A DNA stretch of 64,000 bases from an uncultured Formosa sp. (GCA_913052445.1 CAJXDP010000002.1:62001-126000); one strand, 5' to 3'. Counted from the stretch's first letter, positions 2,301-12,878 are shown. Numbers and translations: made by a program. Notes: a model not told the origin generated them from the sequence alone.

Positions 2301-2308
2301 TAAATTTG
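2301..2308 (+). promoter_or_regulatory. -7 element (TAAATTTG) upstream of the metal-type TonB trio
   Basis: TAAATTTG matches the Bacteroidetes -7 consensus TAnnTTTG and lies 18 bases before the ATG at 2326. No clear TTTG is seen at the -33 distance, so the match rests on one element. It supports the ATG at 2326 over the in-frame GTG at 2308, which would fall inside the promoter. Confidence 0.45.
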
Positions 2309-2325
2309 TGCTCAGTTTATATACC

Positions 2326-2655
2326 ATGTACTTAAAAAATCAAATAGGAAAAATTGTGGCTGCAATTATGCTTTTATTAGCAATAATGCTTCCCACTGCT
2401 GTTCAGTTTGGCCATATGATTGAGGGGCACGATAGTATTGCGTGCAGTGATAAAAGTACACACTTACACAAATCTGAAAAAACATGTGAGATCTGTGATT
2501 TTCAAATTACATCTTTGAATTATGATATTGCTAAATACCCTAATTCAATACTATTACAAGTTTATGCACATGTTAACTCTACTTTAGTTCCTTTACATCT
2601 ACACTACTCTACATTAACTAACAAACAGTTACGCGCACCACCTGAATTTTCTTAA
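2326..2655 (+). CDS. small membrane-anchored His/Cys-rich protein, putative metal-binding accessory
   Basis: This predicted protein of 109 residues has one N-terminal hydrophobic segment (signal or anchor, about residues 8-28). After it comes a segment rich in potential metal ligands: HMIEGHDSIAC, then THLHKSEKTCEICDF, with a CxxC pair and several histidines. The C-terminal part has LHLHYST. I do not recognise a named family. Small HxH/CxxC proteins directly upstream of TonB receptors are common in Bacteroidetes and are usually thought to concern Zn or Cu. The ATG at 2326 is preferred over the GTG at 2308 because of the -7 element at 2301-2308. The receptor gene follows 40 bases later. Metal binding is inferred. 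Confidence 0.6.
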   Translation: MYLKNQIGKIVAAIMLLLAIMLPTAVQFGHMIEGHDSIACSDKSTHLHKSEKTCEICDFQITSLNYDIAKYPNSILLQVYAHVNSTLVPLHLHYSTLTNKQLRAPPEFS

Positions 2656-2695
2656 CAAACTAACACACACGTTTTAATGTTTATTAAGAATTTAT

Positions 2696-5095
2696 ATGCG
2701 CAACTATATATTGCTACTACTCATATTTTGCAGTATAGCAAGTATGTCACAAAATTGTGACAACTCACTTTCAGGAAAAGTAACTGATATCCACGATGGC
2801 CAATCGCTTGTAGGGGTAACTCTCACTATTGCTAATACTGAACAATCTATACAAACCGGTCTTGATGGTAAGTTTTACTTTCCTAAACTTTGTAATGATA
2901 CTTATTACATTCAAGTGTCCCACCCCTATTGTCTAACAAAAGGATACAAAGTTAGAGTTTTTGGAAATACCAAAAAGTCATTTAAACTGGAACACCATGT
3001 TGAAGAACTCAACCAAGTCACTATTGAAGGTAAGGCATTCGGGGAAAATTCAAAAACAGTTTTAGAGAGTACTTTAAATAAAGAAGACTTAGAACGATTT
3101 AGTACCGGTACTCTTGGAAATGCCTTAAATAGTCTAAGTGGTGTATCTTCTTTAAATACTGGAAATAGTGTAGTAAAACCAATAATAAATGGTCTTCACA
3201 GTAGTCGTGTAGTTATAATGAACAATGGGGTAAGAATGGAAGACCAGCGTTGGGGAGTTGAGCATGCTCCCAATATTGATATAAATTCTATCGGAAACCT
3301 TACTCTTATTAAAGGTGCTGCAGCGTTACAATACAGTGGAGATGCTACAGGTGGAATTATAATACTCGAGTCTCCAAAGGTAGCTGTAAAAGACACTATT
3401 TATGGACAAACATCCATTTCAGGGATTTCTAATGGTCGAGGAGTTTTAGTAAATTCAAAAATAACAAAAAGTAATTTAAATGGTTGGTATAGTAGTTTTC
3501 AAGGATCCTTAAAACGAACTGGTGATACTGAAGCTCCAAACTATTTATTAAGCAACACTGGCGTTTCTGAACGAAATGCATCAATAAAACTAGGTTTTAA
3601 TCGATTTGACTATAAAATCGAAGCTTACTACTCTATATTTAAAAACCAGTTGGGGATTTTGAGAGCTTCACACCTGGGTGGCGCCCAAGATCAAGTTCGT
3701 GCTATCTCAAGTCCAACTCCCTTAATTATCAACGACTTTACCTATGATTTAAATGCACCGAGACAAGATGTGACTCACCACCTTGGTCGAATAATTGCTT
3801 TCAAAGAACTAGGTAAACATGGCAAATTAAGTTTTCAGTATGATTACCAACAAAATAATAGACTTGAATATGATATTAGACGGGGTGATGATAGAGACAA
3901 AGCCGCTTTAGATTTAGAACTTATTACTCATACTGTTCAATCTAATTTTGAAACAAATAAATCTGATGTAATCCACATTAAATCTGGAATAATTGGGCGT
4001 TATCAAAAAAACTATCCTAATCCAAACACTGGAATTCGTAGATTAATACCAGACTATACTAAATATGACCTGGGAATTTATGCAATGATTGATACTGATA
4101 TAAGTGAATCCCTAATATTGGAAATTGGAGGACGATTTGACTACACACACATGGATGTATATAAATTTTATCGTAATTCATTTTGGGAATCCAGAAACTA
4201 TGATGTAATTTTTCCTGAAATTGTAGTTGAGGAGTTCGGTACTCAAATTTTAACCCAACCAAAATTAAATTTTTACAACAGCTCGGCAACTCTAGGAACT
4301 ACTTATTCCTTTAGAGATGACTACAAGCTGTTTTTCAACTACTCTTTGGCATCTCGTGCCCCAAACCCATCTGAACTATTTAGCGAGGGCTTACACCACT
4401 CAGCGGCCAGAATAGAGCTAGGAGATTTACGTTTTAATTCTGAGATAGGCCATAAATTTGCAATAACTCTTCAAAAAAATAACAAAAATTATAGTTTTTC
4501 AATTCAGCCTTACATAAATACTATAAACGATTTTATAGTAATTGAACCGGTAGATATAACTGAAACGATAAGGGGTAATTTTCAAGTGTGGGAGTTCAGA
4601 CAAACCAATGCACAATTGATAGGAGTTGACATTGACGCATCGTATCCAATAAATGAAAAACTAAAGTTAAATCATCAATTTTCATTAGTTAAAGGATACG
4701 ATCGTTCTAGAGATAAACCGCTTATTAGCATGCCCCCCGCTAATTTTAAAAATGAAATTGTTTATAAAAATTCAGAATACAATAACTTTAGAATTTCATT
4801 ACAAAGTAATTATGTTTTTCGACAAAATGAATTTCCAAATAATAATTTTGATGTTTATATTCCTCAAACAGAAACTTATGAACTTGTAGATTTTAGCACC
4901 CCTCCAGGTGCTTACCATTTATTAAACTTTAATTCTAGCATAGATTTTAAAACATCCAAAAAAACAATCCTTACGGCAGGACTAGAAATTAGCAACATAT
5001 TAAATACATCATACCGAAATTACCTAAGTCGTCTTAGATTATACGCTGACGACTTGGGCAGAAACTTTTTATTAACCTTAAAACTCAATTATTAA
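2696..5095 (+). CDS. TonB-dependent outer-membrane receptor, probable metal (zinc/copper-type) importer
   Basis: The 799 residues start with a signal peptide (about 1-19). A carboxypeptidase-regulatory-like beta domain (about 25-100, GKVTDIHDGQSLVGVTLTI) follows, then the plug (about 125-230, with VEHAPNIDINSIGNLTLIKG and GDATGGIIILES), then a 22-strand-type barrel ending in the aromatic LTLKLNY. The plug wording (EDQRWGVEHAPNID) resembles ZnuD-like and other divalent-metal receptors more than SusC-type glycan receptors, and there is no SusD partner. It sits between a small His/Cys protein and a lipoprotein gene 25 bases downstream. TonB-receptor assignment is firm; the zinc/copper substrate is inference. 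Confidence 0.88.
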   Translation: MRNYILLLLIFCSIASMSQNCDNSLSGKVTDIHDGQSLVGVTLTIANTEQSIQTGLDGKFYFPKLCNDTYYIQVSHPYCLTKGYKVRVFGNTKKSFKLEHHVEELNQVTIEGKAFGENSKTVLESTLNKEDLERFSTGTLGNALNSLSGVSSLNTGNSVVKPIINGLHSSRVVIMNNGVRMEDQRWGVEHAPNIDINSIGNLTLIKGAAALQYSGDATGGIIILESPKVAVKDTIYGQTSISGISNGRGVLVNSKITKSNLNGWYSSFQGSLKRTGDTEAPNYLLSNTGVSERNASIKLGFNRFDYKIEAYYSIFKNQLGILRASHLGGAQDQVRAISSPTPLIINDFTYDLNAPRQDVTHHLGRIIAFKELGKHGKLSFQYDYQQNNRLEYDIRRGDDRDKAALDLELITHTVQSNFETNKSDVIHIKSGIIGRYQKNYPNPNTGIRRLIPDYTKYDLGIYAMIDTDISESLILEIGGRFDYTHMDVYKFYRNSFWESRNYDVIFPEIVVEEFGTQILTQPKLNFYNSSATLGTTYSFRDDYKLFFNYSLASRAPNPSELFSEGLHHSAARIELGDLRFNSEIGHKFAITLQKNNKNYSFSIQPYINTINDFIVIEPVDITETIRGNFQVWEFRQTNAQLIGVDIDASYPINEKLKLNHQFSLVKGYDRSRDKPLISMPPANFKNEIVYKNSEYNNFRISLQSNYVFRQNEFPNNNFDVYIPQTETYELVDFSTPPGAYHLLNFNSSIDFKTSKKTILTAGLEISNILNTSYRNYLSRLRLYADDLGRNFLLTLKLNY

Positions 5096-5120
5096 TTTTT
5101 AAATTTTAAATTTTAAACAA

Positions 5121-5675
5121 ATGAAAACAGTAAAATTTTTATCAACAACAATTTTTGCAACTGCATTAATTTTCTCATGTTCAAGTGATGACGAATCAAC
5201 ACCTGAACCTGTATTAGAAGAAGAAGTGATTACTACTATGACAATCACTCTTCAAGCCGATGGTCAAGCCGATGTGATATTACAAACTCAGGATTTGGAC
5301 GGAGATGGACCTAATCTTCCAGTAGTAACAGTTTCTGGAGATTTATCTTCAAACACTAATTACTCAGGGTCTATTACACTGTTGAATGAGACGGAGGATC
5401 CAGCGGAAAACATGACATTAGAAATTGAAGAAGAAGACTTAGCACATCAATTTTTCTACTCAGTTGGAAGTGGTCTAGATGCTGAAACTGACTATAATGA
5501 TGCAGATTCTGAAGGAAATCCACTAGGTCTAGACTTTGTATTATCTGCTAACTCTGCAAGCTCAGGTACAATAACGTTTACGCTACGTCACGAACCTAAC
5601 AAACCAAATATGGGCTTAGAAGATGCAGGTGGAGAAACAGACATTGAAGCTACCTTTAATGTATCAATACAATAA
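5121..5675 (+). CDS. acidic surface/periplasmic lipoprotein, partner of the upstream TonB receptor
   Basis: The 184 residues begin with a lipoprotein signal peptide whose lipobox is LIFSC, followed by SSDDE, a Ser-Asp/acidic tether often linked with surface export of lipoproteins in Bacteroidetes. The mature part is beta-rich and acidic. It includes a DLDGDGPNLP loop, resembling a calcium-binding DxDxDG turn, and the segments NTNYSGSITLLNE and EEDLAHQFFYSVGSGL. Similar short lipoproteins are regularly found beside metal-type TonB receptors in Flavobacteria and are often annotated only as a periplasmic-binding-fold-like protein. The gene starts 25 bases after the receptor and ends before a strong terminator at 5772-5806, closing the transcription unit. 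Function is inferred from the neighbourhood. Confidence 0.65.
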   Translation: MKTVKFLSTTIFATALIFSCSSDDESTPEPVLEEEVITTMTITLQADGQADVILQTQDLDGDGPNLPVVTVSGDLSSNTNYSGSITLLNETEDPAENMTLEIEEEDLAHQFFYSVGSGLDAETDYNDADSEGNPLGLDFVLSANSASSGTITFTLRHEPNKPNMGLEDAGGETDIEATFNVSIQ

Positions 5676-5771
5676 ATTGAATTAGTCAAAATTCATTTAT
5701 TTAGTACGTAGTAACAGTTTAGTTTTTTATCATTGATATTAAACAATTCCATGAGTTTATACGTACACCAA

Positions 5772-5806
5772 AAAAGTACTCACATTTTTAATTTGTGGGT
5801 ACTTTT
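5772..5806 (+). terminator. rho-independent terminator, probably bidirectional
   Basis: A 13-base stem (AAAAGTACTCACA at 5772-5784 with TGTGGGTACTTTT at 5794-5806, one G-T pair) closes a 9-base loop and is flanked by A-rich and T-rich tracts. It follows the lipoprotein gene and could also serve the convergent GH2 gene ending at 5908. No other gene was seen in the 230 bases between the two. Confidence 0.75.
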
Positions 5807-5907: not shown

Positions 5908-8493
5908 TTAATAAGTATCTCTAAGGGAAGTAATTTTTATACTAGACTCAAAAGAACTTACATCATCCACGAATTCTTTACCGATAGTTATAATTTTTTT
6001 CATTCCAGGGAGAAGGTCAAAATAATTGTCAGATAAATTTCCTGATGAGTTTGTATAAACAAACACATCTTTTGCTAATTTATCAGTTGTAACAACTAGC
6101 TTAAACTCACTATCATTTTGGCTTAAGATGTAAGAAATCTGTGGCTTTAATAAATTTAGTGATTTTGGTGATTTAAAGTAAAAATAATTATCTGCTAACA
6201 TAGCATTGGATTTAGAAACTAATTTAGCATGAACCAATTTATTATTTAAATCTCCGTACGCAGCAAAGTCTTTTGTAGGAATTTCAAAATATATTTTGGA
6301 TTGATTTGGTTTGACTACAATTTCCTTGTTCCATTTTTCAAGTATGGTTCCATTAAAATCAATTAATTTAATATCTAAAAATGCATTCTTACCACGAATA
6401 GAGTCAGAAACCACATAAAACTGCATCTTTTGATCGTTAATTTCCTGACTTAATAAAAAAGTCTTATATGTTTTTTTGACTTTATACTGTAAGGCTTTCC
6501 ATTTTCCATAATAATCAATACTAGACCAAGAAACTACTGGCCAGCAATCGTTAATTTGCCAGTACAATGTTCCCATACAGCGATCTCTGTGGCGTCTATG
6601 TGATTCAATTCCTATTTTTAGACCCCGAGCTTGAAGTAATTGGCTGACATATAAAAAACTTTCAAAATCTTTTGGTTTTCGATAATCTCGTAGCATATAT
6701 TCATCAATCGTTTCGTTCCCTATACTAGACCTTTGATGAGATTTCATAACATCAGAATAAATATCAAAATCTTCAGCAAGAGCGTAACGCTTTACTGAAG
6801 AAAGCTCAGGAAAAGATTGAAATCCAAATTCAGACATAAATCTAGGAATATCTTTCTCATAGTCTTCAAACGGTTTTTTTCCCCACCAAACCCACCAGTA
6901 ATGCATGTCACCACTTTCCATATTTGTTGGTTTTCCAAAAGAACTTCCTGGAGATGATGGCCAATAGTTTCGATCACTATCATATTCACTGATTACTTCT
7001 GGAAGGAGTTTATGGAAAAGATCATCATAAGACTTCCAAATTGTGTCAGCTATAGCTTTCGACTGATTATTTTTAACTTGGTTTTTCCATCCCCAATTTT
7101 CCCAAGCTGATAAATTTTCATTATTTCCACACCAAAGAGCTATAGAGGGATGATTTCTTAAACGTTTTACATTGTCTATAGCTTCTTGTTTTACTGTTTC
7201 TAAAAATTGTTTATCTCCGGGATACATTGCACAAGCGAACATGAAATCTTGCCAAACTAGAAGACCTTTTTGGTCACACATTTGATAAAAAGTATCAGAT
7301 TCATAAACACCACCTCCCCATACACGAATCATATTCATATTAGAGTCTTGAGCTGCACTCAGGATCCGATCATAGTCTTCTGTGTTAGGTCTCGTTAAAA
7401 AAACATCTTGAGGTATATAATTGGAACCTTTCATAAATACAGGATATCCATTTACTTTGAAATAAAATGAAGTCCCAATATTGTCAGGTTCCATCACAAG
7501 CTCTAAAGTTCTTAAACCTATATCATGTGACTTTGAATCTGTATAATTAGAGTTTGACATTTTAACTTTTATGTCATATAGGGTTTGATCTCCCATGCCG
7601 TTAGGCCACCATAAATCAGGGTTCTCTATCTCAAATGGTATCTTTAAATGATTAATTCCTTGATGAACCTTAACTTGTGTTGATTTGACTTTTTTATCAT
7701 TAACATATATATCTACAAAAGTAGATTTATCAGAATCGGAATCAAAAACTATAGCATCGAGTTCAGCTGTTAAATAAGCGCTATTTTCCAGAATCTTGTA
7801 TCGAATAAATACATCTTCAATTTTAAATCGATTCCAACTCTTTAATGTTACAGGCTTCCATATTCCTGAAGTTACCAATCGTGGACCCCAGTCCCAACCA
7901 AAATGATATCCTGCTTTTCTGCTAAAAACACTAACTTTTTTATCACCTTCTACTTTACCAATAGTAGAAAGGTCATTTCCGGATTGTGGAAAGCTATACC
8001 CTAGATCATCATGTTTTTGAATTCCAACTTTTATGGGAGAGTCAAATTGTACTTTCAAGCTATTAGAAGATTGATTTAATAATTCTTTCACTGAAACAAT
8101 ATAGGACCTAAACATATTGTCAGTTTTTAGAATTAAGCTGTCATTCAAGTAAACTGATGCATAGGTGTCTAAACCTTCAAAATTTAATTCAATATTTTCT
8201 TTAGCTAAAAATGAACTTGGTAAATCAAAAGTAGTTTTATAAATCCAATCCTTTTTATCAATCCATTGTAAATCGTGCTCGTTTAATCTATAGAAAGGGT
8301 CTTTAATAACTCCTGAAGTCATTAAATCTGTATGAACAGTGCCAGGAACGTCTGCCTTTAACCAATTTGTTTGATCAGTACTTTTGAACTCCCATCCCTT
8401 ATTTAATTCAATTTGATCAATTGTGGATTTTTCTTTACAACTATGAAATATAATTGATAAAGTAAGCAGAAGAAAGAAATAATTTAGTTTCAT
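5908..8493 (-). CDS. glycoside hydrolase family 2 beta-mannosidase, lipoprotein
   Basis: This is an 861-residue exo-glycosidase with a lipoprotein signal (cysteine in IIFHSCKEK). An N-terminal jelly-roll sugar-binding domain comes first, with GWEFKSTDQTNWLKADVPG and WIYKTTFDLP. Ig-like beta domains and a central TIM barrel follow. Catalytic residues are readable: the acid/base glutamate in LWCGNNEN and the nucleophile glutamate in RFMSEFGFQSFP. IRVWGGGVYESDTFY and QDFMFACAMYPGD are typical of GH2 beta-mannosidases rather than beta-galactosidases. The enzyme should trim terminal beta-1,4-mannose from mannans or N-glycan cores, probably in the periplasm. Its ATG overlaps the cutC stop by 4 bases (ATGA), implying translational coupling. 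Confidence 0.9.
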   Translation of the reverse strand: MKLNYFFLLLTLSIIFHSCKEKSTIDQIELNKGWEFKSTDQTNWLKADVPGTVHTDLMTSGVIKDPFYRLNEHDLQWIDKKDWIYKTTFDLPSSFLAKENIELNFEGLDTYASVYLNDSLILKTDNMFRSYIVSVKELLNQSSNSLKVQFDSPIKVGIQKHDDLGYSFPQSGNDLSTIGKVEGDKKVSVFSRKAGYHFGWDWGPRLVTSGIWKPVTLKSWNRFKIEDVFIRYKILENSAYLTAELDAIVFDSDSDKSTFVDIYVNDKKVKSTQVKVHQGINHLKIPFEIENPDLWWPNGMGDQTLYDIKVKMSNSNYTDSKSHDIGLRTLELVMEPDNIGTSFYFKVNGYPVFMKGSNYIPQDVFLTRPNTEDYDRILSAAQDSNMNMIRVWGGGVYESDTFYQMCDQKGLLVWQDFMFACAMYPGDKQFLETVKQEAIDNVKRLRNHPSIALWCGNNENLSAWENWGWKNQVKNNQSKAIADTIWKSYDDLFHKLLPEVISEYDSDRNYWPSSPGSSFGKPTNMESGDMHYWWVWWGKKPFEDYEKDIPRFMSEFGFQSFPELSSVKRYALAEDFDIYSDVMKSHQRSSIGNETIDEYMLRDYRKPKDFESFLYVSQLLQARGLKIGIESHRRHRDRCMGTLYWQINDCWPVVSWSSIDYYGKWKALQYKVKKTYKTFLLSQEINDQKMQFYVVSDSIRGKNAFLDIKLIDFNGTILEKWNKEIVVKPNQSKIYFEIPTKDFAAYGDLNNKLVHAKLVSKSNAMLADNYFYFKSPKSLNLLKPQISYILSQNDSEFKLVVTTDKLAKDVFVYTNSSGNLSDNYFDLLPGMKKIITIGKEFVDDVSSFESSIKITSLRDTY

Positions 8494-9212
8494 TTTATAA
8501 TTTGAATTAATTTACTTATAGTTTGAATATTTGAAGTGACTGAAATGTTTTCGCCAATTAACTTTTGACTGTTCATATTGACTTTTGAGGTTGTTAAATG
8601 CTGCTTTATAGTAGTAGCTGAAGCGTGAATTTCATTAAATCCATTGGCTTTAAATTTCAAAATATTATCAGATGTAACGCCGCCACCAGGCATTATGATC
8701 ATTCGGTTTGCTGCATAGCTATTAAACTTAATTAGTGAATCTAAACCTTTTAATGCAGAAGCTACTTGGCCTGAAGTTAGGAGTCTTTTAACTCCCAAAG
8801 AAATAAGCGAGTCAATAGCTTTTATTGGACTTGGAGTCCAATCAAATGCACGATGGAATGTAAAAGGTAAAGAATCACAAGAATCTATTAGTTGTTGAAC
8901 AGCTGAAATATTAATAGTGTGATCAGGATTTAAAACACCAGAAACAAAACCCTTGCAGCCCATAGATTTATATGTTTTAATATCAGATAGCATAATACTT
9001 AACTCCGATTTTGTGTAGCAAAAATTACCACTTCTAGGACGAATCAACACAAAAACTGGAATATTTATACAAGCTAATACTTGTTCTACCATTCCAAATG
9101 AAGGGGTGATACCTCCTACACCAAGCTCAACACATAATTCAATTCTGTGAGCACCTGCATTTTGAGCATTTATTGCGGACTCAAATGAATTAGCACAAAT
9201 TTCTAAAAGCAT
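8490..9212 (-). CDS. cutC: CutC family TIM-barrel protein
   Basis: The 240 residues match CutC from end to end: LLEICANSFESAINAQNAGA at the N-terminus, RIELCVELGVGGITPS, VLIRPRSGNFCYT, FHRAFDWTPSP, RLLTSGQ and IIMPGGGVTSDN. The family is annotated as cytoplasmic copper homeostasis, but the evidence is thin and the fold is an enzyme-like TIM barrel with a conserved pocket. It is the first gene of an operon with a beta-mannosidase, overlapping it by 4 bases, which argues for a role in sugar metabolism at least in this genome. The family call is firm and the biochemical role uncertain. Confidence 0.9.
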   Translation of the reverse strand: MLLEICANSFESAINAQNAGAHRIELCVELGVGGITPSFGMVEQVLACINIPVFVLIRPRSGNFCYTKSELSIMLSDIKTYKSMGCKGFVSGVLNPDHTINISAVQQLIDSCDSLPFTFHRAFDWTPSPIKAIDSLISLGVKRLLTSGQVASALKGLDSLIKFNSYAANRMIIMPGGGVTSDNILKFKANGFNEIHASATTIKQHLTTSKVNMNSQKLIGENISVTSNIQTISKLIQIIK

Positions 9213-10158: not shown

Positions 10159-10569
10159 TTAGAACTTAACATCCGGAATTGGACTACCGTGCGGATCGGT
10201 ATCTCGATTATTTAACATTTTTTGCACTTTCCTAAAAAAAGCTGGACTTTCTATATGCTCTATTTCCTCAGCTATATCATGAACACTTTCTGGTTGGAAC
10301 TCCATGATTTCAACTAAAAAAAGCTCAATTAAACGGTGCTTCGCTACTATAGTCCTAGCAAGCTTTCTACCTTCTGAAGTGAACTCTATAGCTTTATAAG
10401 GAGCTGAGTTCAACAAATCCATAGACACCAACTTTTTAATCATATTAGAAACCGATGATTTAGAAACCCCTAAAACTTTAGATAAGCATGACACAGATAC
10501 TATTTCACTAGCTGTTTCTAATCTATATATTTCCTTTAAATAATGTTCTTTTTCTTTAGTTTTTCTCAT
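10159..10569 (-). CDS. DtxR/MntR-family metal-dependent transcriptional regulator (short form)
   Basis: The 136 residues contain an N-terminal winged helix (about 1-65; KEKEHYLKEIYRLE, VSCLSKVLGVSKSSVSNMIKKL). The metal-binding and dimerisation domain follows (about 66-136; AKHRLIELFLVE, VHDIAEEIEHIES, ending near DPHGSPIP). The HRLIE and AEEIEH histidines and glutamates are the usual Fe/Mn ligands. No SH3-like/FeoA domain is present, as in MntR. It is divergent from a TonB receptor with about 80 bases between start codons. Two copies of an 18-base repeat there overlap the receptor promoter, so it probably represses the receptor when iron or manganese is plentiful. Which metal it senses is not decided. 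Confidence 0.88.
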   Translation of the reverse strand: MRKTKEKEHYLKEIYRLETASEIVSVSCLSKVLGVSKSSVSNMIKKLVSMDLLNSAPYKAIEFTSEGRKLARTIVAKHRLIELFLVEIMEFQPESVHDIAEEIEHIESPAFFRKVQKMLNNRDTDPHGSPIPDVKF

Positions 10570-10572
10570 TTG

Positions 10573-10618
10573 TTTTGCAGTAGTGAACTATTTTTATTAG
10601 TTTTGCAGTGGTGAACAC
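10573..10618. promoter_or_regulatory. receptor promoter with duplicated operator-like repeat
   Basis: The plus-strand promoter has a -33 box TTTTG (10573-10577), a 20-base spacer and a -7 box TAGTTTTG (10598-10605), ahead of the ATG at 10653. Overlapping each box is a copy of a repeat: TTTTGCAGTAGTGAACTA (10573-10590) and TTTTGCAGTGGTGAACAC (10601-10618), 28 bases apart. The cores are near-palindromic (TAGTGAACTA; AGTGGTGAACACT). This is the expected place for binding of the divergently encoded DtxR/MntR-type protein. Operator function is inferred from position and repetition. Confidence 0.55.
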
Positions 10619-10652
10619 TATTAATCACTTGATAATAACCAAATTTACAAAA

Positions 10653-12878
10653 ATGAGCCTTAAAAATTGTCTTAATTTTATCATAATCATACTTTTAACA
10701 GGATTCACTTATGCCCAAACAATAAGCGGATTGGTAAAGGACAGTGAGCAAAACCTTCTTTTTGGGGCAACAATCCATAATAGCTCAAATTCGAAAAGCG
10801 AGATAGTAAATGAAGTAGGAGAGTTTTCAATAGAATCAAAAAAAGGTGAAAATAAGCTCTTCATTTCATATGTAGGATATTCTTCAGCAGTTATAATAAT
10901 AATATCTAATGGAGAATCAATAATTGACGTTGGCACAATAGTACTAGAAAATGATAGCTTGGAGGAGATTGTTATTTCGGGAACACTTAGAGAAGTGTCA
11001 AAGCTTAAAAGTGCTGTCCCTATTGAGCTTTATACTGCCGATTTTTTTAAAGCAACCCCAAAAGCGAGTTTATTTGAAGCTATAGAATCGATAAATGGTG
11101 TTCGTCCACAATTAAACTGTAACGTATGCAATACAGGTGATATTCATATTAATGGTCAAGAAGGAGCAAATACAATGGTATTAATTGATGGACTTCCTAT
11201 TGTTAGTGGCTTATCAACTGTCTATGGTCTTTCGGGGATCCCGCAATCTCTTGTTAAGCAAGTTGAAGTAATAAAGGGGCCTGCATCTACACTATATGGG
11301 TCTGAAGCGATTGGAGGAGTTATTAATCTAATTACCAAGTCACCTGAAACTGTTAAACCGTTTAACATTGAAACCTTTATGAGCTCATGGGGAGAATTAA
11401 ATATTGACATTGGTGCTAAATACAAGCTAAAAAACAGTCAAGGCTTGATTGGAGTAAATTATTTTAATTATTCCAATCCAATTGATAATAATGGAGATGG
11501 GTTTACTGATTTAACACTACAACACAGAATTTCCATTTTTAATAAAATTAAAACAAAAAAAAACAGTGTGGCGTTTCGTTATTTTTATGAAGACCGTTGG
11601 GGTGGTGAAATGAACTGGAGTTCTAGATTTAGAGGAGGTAATGAAGTTTATGGTGAGAGTATATACACAAGCAGAGTCGAAGTATTTGGAAAGTATGATG
11701 TTTCAGAAAATTTGTTTTTACAATACAGCTTAAATAATCATGATCAAAATTCGGTTTATGGCACTACTTCTTATAATGCCATACAAACTACTGGTTTTTT
11801 ACAGGGAGTATTTATGAAGAACATACATAACCATGACTTGTTATTTGGAGCAACGTATCGGTATACACTTTATGATGACAACACCCCTGCCACTATCCAA
11901 AAAGATAAAACAGCCCTGCCAGGGCTTTTTATCCAGGACCAATGGACTATTAACAAATCCCAAACATTACTGTCTGGAATCCGATATGATAAGAACTCCA
12001 TTTACGGAGATATTTGGACGCCAAGATTAAACTATAAATGGTCAAGTGAAGACGAAAGCTCAATTTTACGCCTTGGATTTGGAACTGGATACAGGGTAGT
12101 TAATGTATTTACAGAAGATCATGCAGCACTGACAGGCGCAAGAGACGTGGTTTTTACGGAGGCTATTCTGCCAGAAAAATCATGGAATACAACTATTAAT
12201 TGGAATAAAAAATTATACAGCAAATATGGAGCTATTTTTGACTTAGACTTTAGTGTCTTTAAGACTGAATTTTCGAATAGAATTCTGCCAGATTACGAAA
12301 CCAACCCAAACCAGATAATTTATAGTAATCTAGTTGGCAAGTCAATAACTCAAGGAGCAACAGTTAATATAAATAGCTTATTTGCAGATGGATTAAAAGT
12401 AAATATAGGCGCTACATTTATTGATTCTAAAATCATTAATAACAACCAAATTGAATATCCTTACTTGACTGAGAAATTTTCAGGAAATTATCAACTAAGT
12501 TACACATTTTATGAGCCTAAAATCACAGTTGATATTTCTGGAACTGTCATTGGCTCCATGAAACTCCCACTTCTTGGCAATTTAGATACGAGAGCTCCTA
12601 ACAGTCCAGTTATTAATATCATGAACATACAAGCAACCTATGAATTTAAAACTATTGAAATATTTGCTGGTATTAAAAATATTTTAGATTTTAAGCCAGA
12701 TTCTAACAGCATTGCACGTGCTTTTGACCCCTTTGATTCTGGAGTTGAATTTGGAAGCAATGGACAAGTTATAGCTACCCAAAATAACCCTAACGCACTC
12801 TCATTCGATCCAAGCTATGTCTACTACTCTAACCAAGGAATTAATGGGTTTATTGGGGTAAGGTATCATGTCAATTAA
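10653..12878 (+). CDS. TonB-dependent outer-membrane receptor, probably iron/manganese related
   Basis: The predicted 741-residue protein begins with a signal peptide ending in TYAQ. A carboxypeptidase-regulatory-like domain follows (about 22-105; ISGLVKDSEQNLLFGATIHN), then a plug with HINGQEGANTMVLIDG and VEVIKGPASTLYGSEAIGG, then a barrel ending in FIGVRYHVN. The plug carries a cysteine pair, LNCNVCNTGDIHI, shared with a group of Bacteroidetes siderophore, haem or metal receptors. The ATG at 10653 is preferred over the in-frame GTG at 10608, which would overlap the promoter and precede the signal peptide. Control by the divergent DtxR-type regulator points to iron or manganese acquisition. 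The exact ligand is unknown. Confidence 0.9.
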   Translation: MSLKNCLNFIIIILLTGFTYAQTISGLVKDSEQNLLFGATIHNSSNSKSEIVNEVGEFSIESKKGENKLFISYVGYSSAVIIIISNGESIIDVGTIVLENDSLEEIVISGTLREVSKLKSAVPIELYTADFFKATPKASLFEAIESINGVRPQLNCNVCNTGDIHINGQEGANTMVLIDGLPIVSGLSTVYGLSGIPQSLVKQVEVIKGPASTLYGSEAIGGVINLITKSPETVKPFNIETFMSSWGELNIDIGAKYKLKNSQGLIGVNYFNYSNPIDNNGDGFTDLTLQHRISIFNKIKTKKNSVAFRYFYEDRWGGEMNWSSRFRGGNEVYGESIYTSRVEVFGKYDVSENLFLQYSLNNHDQNSVYGTTSYNAIQTTGFLQGVFMKNIHNHDLLFGATYRYTLYDDNTPATIQKDKTALPGLFIQDQWTINKSQTLLSGIRYDKNSIYGDIWTPRLNYKWSSEDESSILRLGFGTGYRVVNVFTEDHAALTGARDVVFTEAILPEKSWNTTINWNKKLYSKYGAIFDLDFSVFKTEFSNRILPDYETNPNQIIYSNLVGKSITQGATVNINSLFADGLKVNIGATFIDSKIINNNQIEYPYLTEKFSGNYQLSYTFYEPKITVDISGTVIGSMKLPLLGNLDTRAPNSPVINIMNIQATYEFKTIEIFAGIKNILDFKPDSNSIARAFDPFDSGVEFGSNGQVIATQNNPNALSFDPSYVYYSNQGINGFIGVRYHVN

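Follow-up and report, generated by a model that had tools for sequence, protein, structure and literature searches.

Known leaders and the Formosa locus

The closest described relative of the system discussed here is CruR (bp2923, DUF2946), the small first protein of the Bordetella pertussis operon cruR-bfrG-bp2921, which represses its TonB receptor in copper; its RAPP motif is needed for expression of the next gene, its CxxC motif for copper control, and the 45-residue spacing is functionally important (PMC9426467). According to a 2025 EMBO J survey, the arrest of CruR can be recreated in vitro, with Pro-Pro occupying the P and A sites, and RAPP and RGPP arrest translation in a wider range of sequence contexts than do other RAPP-like motifs that were tested (PMC12992588). 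In Rhodobacter capsulatus, CutF works with a stem-loop that shields the next start (PMC9973294). The subject of this work is a three-gene locus in a 64,000-nucleotide stretch of DNA from an uncultured Formosa sp. (GCA_913052445.1), called the window in what follows, in which a small gene (S), a gene for a TonB-dependent receptor (R) and a lipoprotein gene (L) follow one another on the same strand. Judging from sequence comparison, it is likely that this locus consists of a ZnuD-like receptor and a surface lipoprotein placed under a leader of the CruR/CutF type, whose translational arrest is relieved by metal.

Several features are shared with CruR: an exported small protein encoded by the first gene, a CxxC followed by RAPP 45 residues on, a TonB receptor encoded next, and a tract richer in C than in G at the leader end, as in the Bordetella rut site (PMC9426467). 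The leader here differs in having an extra conserved HxH and Cys and in often losing the second Cys of the CxxC. The gap behind it is about 40 nucleotides long and holds a hairpin, whereas that of CruR has 162 nucleotides; the third gene encodes a surface lipoprotein where the Bordetella operon has a PepSY protein; and the metal is probably zinc. CutF, too, is a DUF2946-like exported leader with a Cys motif, a proline-rich tail and a stem-loop on the next start (PMC9973294), but it switches on a copper oxidase in copper excess, whereas an uptake receptor, as here, is expected to be on in scarcity. SecM and the RAPP-type arrest peptides ApdA and ApdP likewise carry a C-terminal arrest motif, and the arrest of SecM unmasks the next start; these peptides monitor protein export, whereas for the present leader metal is proposed. 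By both sequence and structure, the receptor is matched best by ZnuD of Neisseria meningitidis (about 15% identity), for which no leader of such a kind is known to us. The 2025 survey already counts TonB-related RAPP/RGPP upstream open reading frames (uORFs) ahead of TonB receptors in Gram-negative phyla; a term search of its text returned no mention of a Flavobacteriaceae family, a hairpin, the spacing, an RPPP variant or a link to zinc (PMC12992588).

A conserved unit headed by a small gene

An earlier note on this locus had described three co-directional genes and held that small proteins and lipoproteins of these kinds recur beside such receptors. The genes are confirmed, and all three are conserved together as a unit. 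Two collections were compared, namely a family set of 149 genomes of the family and a named set of 80 Flavobacteriaceae genome loci retrieved by lipoprotein search, from genera that include Galbibacter, Aequorivita, Gillisia, Cellulophaga, Maribacter, Zobellia, Formosa and Tenacibaculum; the two share some genomes and are not fully independent. Lipoprotein homologues occur in 62 of the 149 family genomes and small-protein homologues in 116, and gene maps give the order S-R-L for most lipoprotein loci of the family. In the named set, the small gene comes first in 79 of 80 loci, the 80th starting inside the receptor at a contig end. The orders in the 79 assessable loci are S-R-L (68), S-L-R (9) and S-L (2), and the leader stays ahead of whichever gene follows, even where receptor and lipoprotein are swapped. 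The small gene is also found with a second receptor type (about 25% identical), without the lipoprotein and often behind serC-serA-DUF937-DUF6146-DUF6787. As CruR/DUF2946 leaders do, it heads operons of metal-handling genes. Because it directly adjoins a co-directional upstream gene at many sites, the element does not necessarily require its own metal-responsive promoter. The small protein matched nothing among viral contigs.

The C-terminal motif of the leader

The HxH, the CxxC and the clustered histidines to which the earlier note drew attention are present and largely conserved in an alignment of 33 diverse homologues, where P23, C54, R103, P105 and P106 are invariant and H30, H35, C40, H46, H48 and F59 nearly so. 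The earlier note overlooked the C-terminal RAPP, which is the most conserved feature, and the hairpin that lies between small gene and receptor. The R-A/G-P-P end, conserved to the same degree as the Cys, sits in the window three residues ahead of the stop. A C-terminal [RK][AGP]PP was found in 98 of 101 family loci and in all 79 assessable named loci, against 2 of 391 other open reading frames (ORFs) of those family loci; no other ORF of the window has a RAPP-type end. The 98 family leaders divide into RGPP (59), RAPP (27), RPPP (10), KPPP (1) and KAPP (1), and the named leaders into RAPP (43), RGPP (26) and RPPP (10). From CxxC to RAPP the spacing in the window is exactly 45, and it is 44-45 in 28 of the 30 R[AG]PP-type leaders that keep the CxxC. 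In many leaders the second Cys of this motif is gone, with only C40, HxH and C54 retained. The weak match of the window protein to DUF2946 is in register, the last position of the model falling on the last Pro of RAPP.

A second leader subtype was also observed, which ends in RPPP or KPPP, contains HxxxH, has its CxxC 48-51 residues before the motif and precedes the same receptor type (L081, L101-L103, L150, L151, L153, L156, L159 and L160). The literature examined holds no description of RPPP arrest.

A hairpin between the leader end and the next start

In the window, the end of the leader pairs with sequence just ahead of the receptor gene (-13.8 kcal/mol, z -2.2), and an outer helix is predicted between 2633-2637, within the RA codons, and 2697-2701, at the ATGCGC start. 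How general is this arrangement? Stems that join the nucleotides after RxPP to the spacer were sought, and the best of them was scored against dinucleotide shuffles. Taken alone, the window locus gives p 0.085, which is not significant; among the 98 family junctions between leader and next gene, 60 reach p<=0.05 and 32 reach p<=0.01. The controls were 0 of 35 for receptor-lipoprotein junctions and, for other co-directional junctions, 2 of 97 at p<=0.05 and 0 of 97 at p<=0.01. In the named set the stem is found at 32 of 79 junctions, compared with 1 of 65 controls. Base pairs differ among the 57 distinct stems, but their position is shared: the 5' arm begins 0-6 nucleotides after RxPP, and the 3' arm mostly ends 2-14 nucleotides ahead of the next ATG. 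Within the type A receptor clade, 82.7% of cells are paired, against 30-52% when the pairing is slid. In modelling, a ribosome placed at RxPP makes the start region cheaper to open: the average cost (n=88) drops from 8.7 to 4.4 kcal/mol, that of the window drops from 13.6 to 4.5 kcal/mol, and that of the receptor-lipoprotein control changes from 3.1 to 2.3 kcal/mol. The case for a hairpin readout in Flavobacteriaceae is good.

The receptor and its metal

The plug motif cited by the earlier note, EDQRWGVEHAPNID (EHAPNID), is present, and the eight plug residues W186, G187, E189, H190, A191, P192, N193 and D195 are invariant in 35 receptors. The likeness to metal receptors seen at first sight was upheld: ZnuD is the best solved relative by sequence and takes ranks 1-4 in a Foldseek search, with OprC next, the model used being a middling one (mean predicted local distance difference test (pLDDT) 71, plug poor). 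The ZnuD family of NCBIfam, NF038289, is the top family by bits, at 84.6 against a cut-off of 950, so that the receptor is ZnuD-like, short of formal membership; TIGR01778, for OprC-type copper receptors, gives 58 bits against 472.

Relatives of the leader point in the same direction. One ending in LRAPP heads an operon of outer membrane protein, ZnuA, ZnuC and ZnuB genes in three genomes of one lineage (L203 183-4271, L261 and L262). In another lineage, Fur-family, FolE and ZIP genes are found close to genes for a leader, a receptor and DUF4625. Genus g127 has leaders at the head of an ABC-2 ATPase, a TonB receptor, FhuA-like by NCBIfam, and two ABC-2 permeases, a cassette reminiscent of znuK/znuGHI of Caulobacter, where Zur regulates these genes. 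Zinc is favoured over copper because ZnuD is the best structural match and because leader relatives head ZnuABC operons, and we take it to be the fairly likely metal. No ZnuA was found in the window's own genome, which is about 81% complete, and a literature search found no zinc-responsive arrest peptide.

Two observations may be added. Some g127 genomes (L193, L195 and L199) contain up to three leaders, heading the ABC-2/TonB cassette, a lone TonB receptor, or DUF4625/receptor operons. In the receptor, a CarboxypepD-like domain (window 2696-3020, residues 21-101) has invariant C21, C66, H76, C79, H100 and H101 and a near-invariant H33; this set is a possible periplasmic metal or disulfide site, which would be unusual for a TonB receptor extension.

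Proposed mechanism

An invariant R-A/G-P-P at a fixed distance from the Cys, in a gene that is always first and whose stop codon lies in a hairpin with the receptor start, fits a nascent peptide that regulates in the manner of CruR and CutF, and the case for an arrest leader is strong. When metal is scarce, the ribosome on the leader would stall at the C-terminal RAPP and cover the codons behind it and the stop, so that the hairpin could not form and the receptor start would stay open; the stalled ribosome may additionally shield a Rho loading tract. With the hairpin blocked, receptor and lipoprotein would be made, and the receptor would move metal across the outer membrane, aided by the surface lipoprotein. 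Metal, when present, would bind the nascent chain at its His/Cys cluster, some 45-57 residues away from the arrest site and predicted to be just beyond the exit tunnel, and the stall would be released. Once the ribosome has gone, the hairpin would close on the receptor start region, Rho may act too, and uptake would be off.

Some results weigh against this proposal, for which all of the evidence is computational. Pfam PF11162 (DUF2946) gives the window protein 13 bits (E 0.19), below the curated cut-off of 23.7, and matches 5 of the 33 members, with a best E of 0.0074. For this reason we describe the small protein as working in the manner of CruR and do not formally assign it to DUF2946. When a DUF2946/CzcI comparator was sought on pMOL30, the hits were weak. 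Copper binding as in CruR cannot be general, given how many leaders have dropped the second Cys. As for the hairpin, RNAalifold found no consensus structure in 39 type A junctions, covariation within this clade is weak, the support consists of independent stems across divergent loci that are to some degree related by descent, and in distant loci the stem is rarer (6 of 26 at p<=0.05). The ZnuABC operons are confined to one narrow lineage, and Pro codons contribute to the C>G tract, for which amino-acid composition may partly account.

Alternative explanations

Could the small protein be a metal carrier after all? The earlier note had the trio capture zinc or copper at the surface and hand it on, which would make the small protein an anchored periplasmic or surface chaperone that passes metal to or from the receptor. 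Such a role would suit its His/Cys ligands, its N-terminal export signal and its co-occurrence with a metal receptor, but it leaves unexplained the invariant R-x-P-P at a fixed distance, the first position in every gene order and the stop codon in the hairpin, all of which fit a regulator; moreover, the studied relatives CruR and CutF are undetectable as proteins in cells (PMC9426467, PMC9973294). The small protein probably does not serve to catch metal at the surface, and the chaperone role as a whole is improbable, so that of the earlier interpretation the recurrence of the genes and the metal-receptor likeness are borne out and the capture role of the small protein is not. If it is an arrest leader, the readout might be Rho-dependent termination exactly as in Bordetella CruR, with the hairpin secondary. 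In favor of this, the leader carries a strong C>G tract at its 3' end (C 28% and G 6% in the window; family mean C-G of +0.117, against -0.020 in control windows), whereas the intergenic region is far shorter than in Bordetella (PMC9426467) and the recurrent hairpin is located at the next start; Rho as the main readout is possible but somewhat doubtful. The hairpin and Rho readouts are compatible, and both may act together. Attenuators commonly have a stem that overlaps the stop of the leader, and the stem here could be an intrinsic transcription terminator with no block of translation. Yet a U run (>=6 T in the next 8 nucleotides) follows 1 of 60 stems and the 3' arm mostly ends close to the next ATG, which makes an attenuator highly improbable.

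It is also conceivable that the same arrest leader senses copper and that the receptor, like OprC, imports this metal. The closest studied leaders, CruR and CutF, do sense copper through Cys motifs (PMC9426467, PMC9973294), and OprC is the second-best structural match. Against this, ZnuD ranks first by sequence and structure, and leader relatives head ZnuABC operons. Type A receptors conserve many His (H190, H326, H361, H412, H567 and H568) and no Met beyond the start; in type B receptors, an invariant HxHPHP cluster is accompanied by M121 as the sole conserved Met. The many leaders reduced to C40, HxH and C54 argue against a strict copper CxxC, and Cu-related RAPP uORFs are reported absent from Bacteroidota by one survey (PMC12992588). 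Copper is an unlikely choice.

Layout of the locus, lipoprotein and neighboring genes

The boundaries of the locus given in the earlier note, a -7 element and a strong terminator, were both recovered (Table 1). Of 62 related loci, 38 have TAnnTTTG no more than 60 nucleotides from the start, where shuffled sequences give 3.5. A simple sigma-70 and terminator scan gave nothing useful, and the terminator was confirmed instead by folding. A Zur- or CsoR-like operator was also looked for upstream: no conserved one was recognized, nor any shared inverted repeat of Zur/Fur-like kind in the 25 loci scanned ahead of the leader.

Table 1. Features of the locus, with positions counted in the window
Feature	Position	Strand	Basis
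-7 promoter element (Bacteroidota), TAAATTTG	2301..2308	+	direct reading; motif enrichment upstream of related leaders
Leader gene S, 109-aa exported CruR-like peptide	2326..2655	+	ORF, homologues, first-gene position
Codons H46-x-H48, putative metal ligands with C40	2461..2469	+	near-invariance in 33 homologues
Codons C54-E-I-C57 (CxxC)	2485..2496	+	C54 invariant in 33 homologues; 45 residues ahead of RAPP
C-rich, G-poor tract (C 23-28%, G 5-8%), possible Rho loading site	2541..2678	+	composition, common to family
Codons R103-A-P-P, predicted translation-arrest motif	2632..2643	+	R103, P105, P106 invariant
Leader-receptor hairpin, 5' arm TTCTTAA, contains leader stop codon	2649..2655	+	RNA folding
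Leader-receptor hairpin, 3' arm TTAAGAA, end 6 nt ahead of receptor ATG	2684..2690	+	RNA folding
TonB-dependent receptor, 799 aa, ZnuD-like, N-terminal CarboxypepD-like domain	2696..5095	+	Pfam plug and barrel; ZnuD best match
Lipoprotein L, 184 aa, single Ig-like beta-sandwich, acidic CSSDDE export tether, DxDGDG loop	5121..5675	+	AlphaFold model
Intrinsic-terminator-like hairpin	5772..5806	+	folding: 13-bp stem, -15.8 kcal/mol, z -5.8

The lipoprotein model (mean pLDDT 88) places its one sandwich behind the tether. The DLDGDG loop and acidic export tether reported earlier are both there, with D58, D60, G61, D62 and G63 invariant in 42 lipoproteins, as are H109-Q110 and H157; in the export signal, C20 is invariant and D23 and D24 are nearly so. 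A fold search returned generic Ig-like matches (Z at most 8.6) and no functional clue. Among the structure matches of the receptor is XusA-XusB, a solved precedent of a surface lipoprotein bound to a TonB receptor, and the lipoprotein may be the receptor's partner. Just behind the lipoprotein of another locus (L065 6678-7067), a 129-aa ORF has NKPPP near its C-terminus and is possibly another leader for the next gene.

Elsewhere in the window, a DtxR/MntR-family regulator on the minus strand is divergent from a second TonB receptor with a CNVC motif (10159-12878), probably an iron or manganese locus, and an ORF recognized by eye as resembling CutC, of the copper homeostasis family, lies behind a beta-mannosidase-like gene (8490-9212).

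Concluding remarks

We put forward, as a tentative proposal that may hold, a family of zinc-sensing nascent-chain leaders in Bacteroidota, which would control ZnuD-like receptors and elsewhere ZnuABC by RAPP arrest and a start-shielding hairpin, possibly with Rho. A copper mechanism described in Proteobacteria would extend to Flavobacteriaceae and more distant Bacteroidota, seemingly in adapted form among marine members of the phylum, and a zinc-sensing version of it is suggested. The widespread and unannotated small genes ahead of metal receptors are probably regulators and not metal carriers, which bears on how Bacteroidota set the uptake of metals across their outer membrane.

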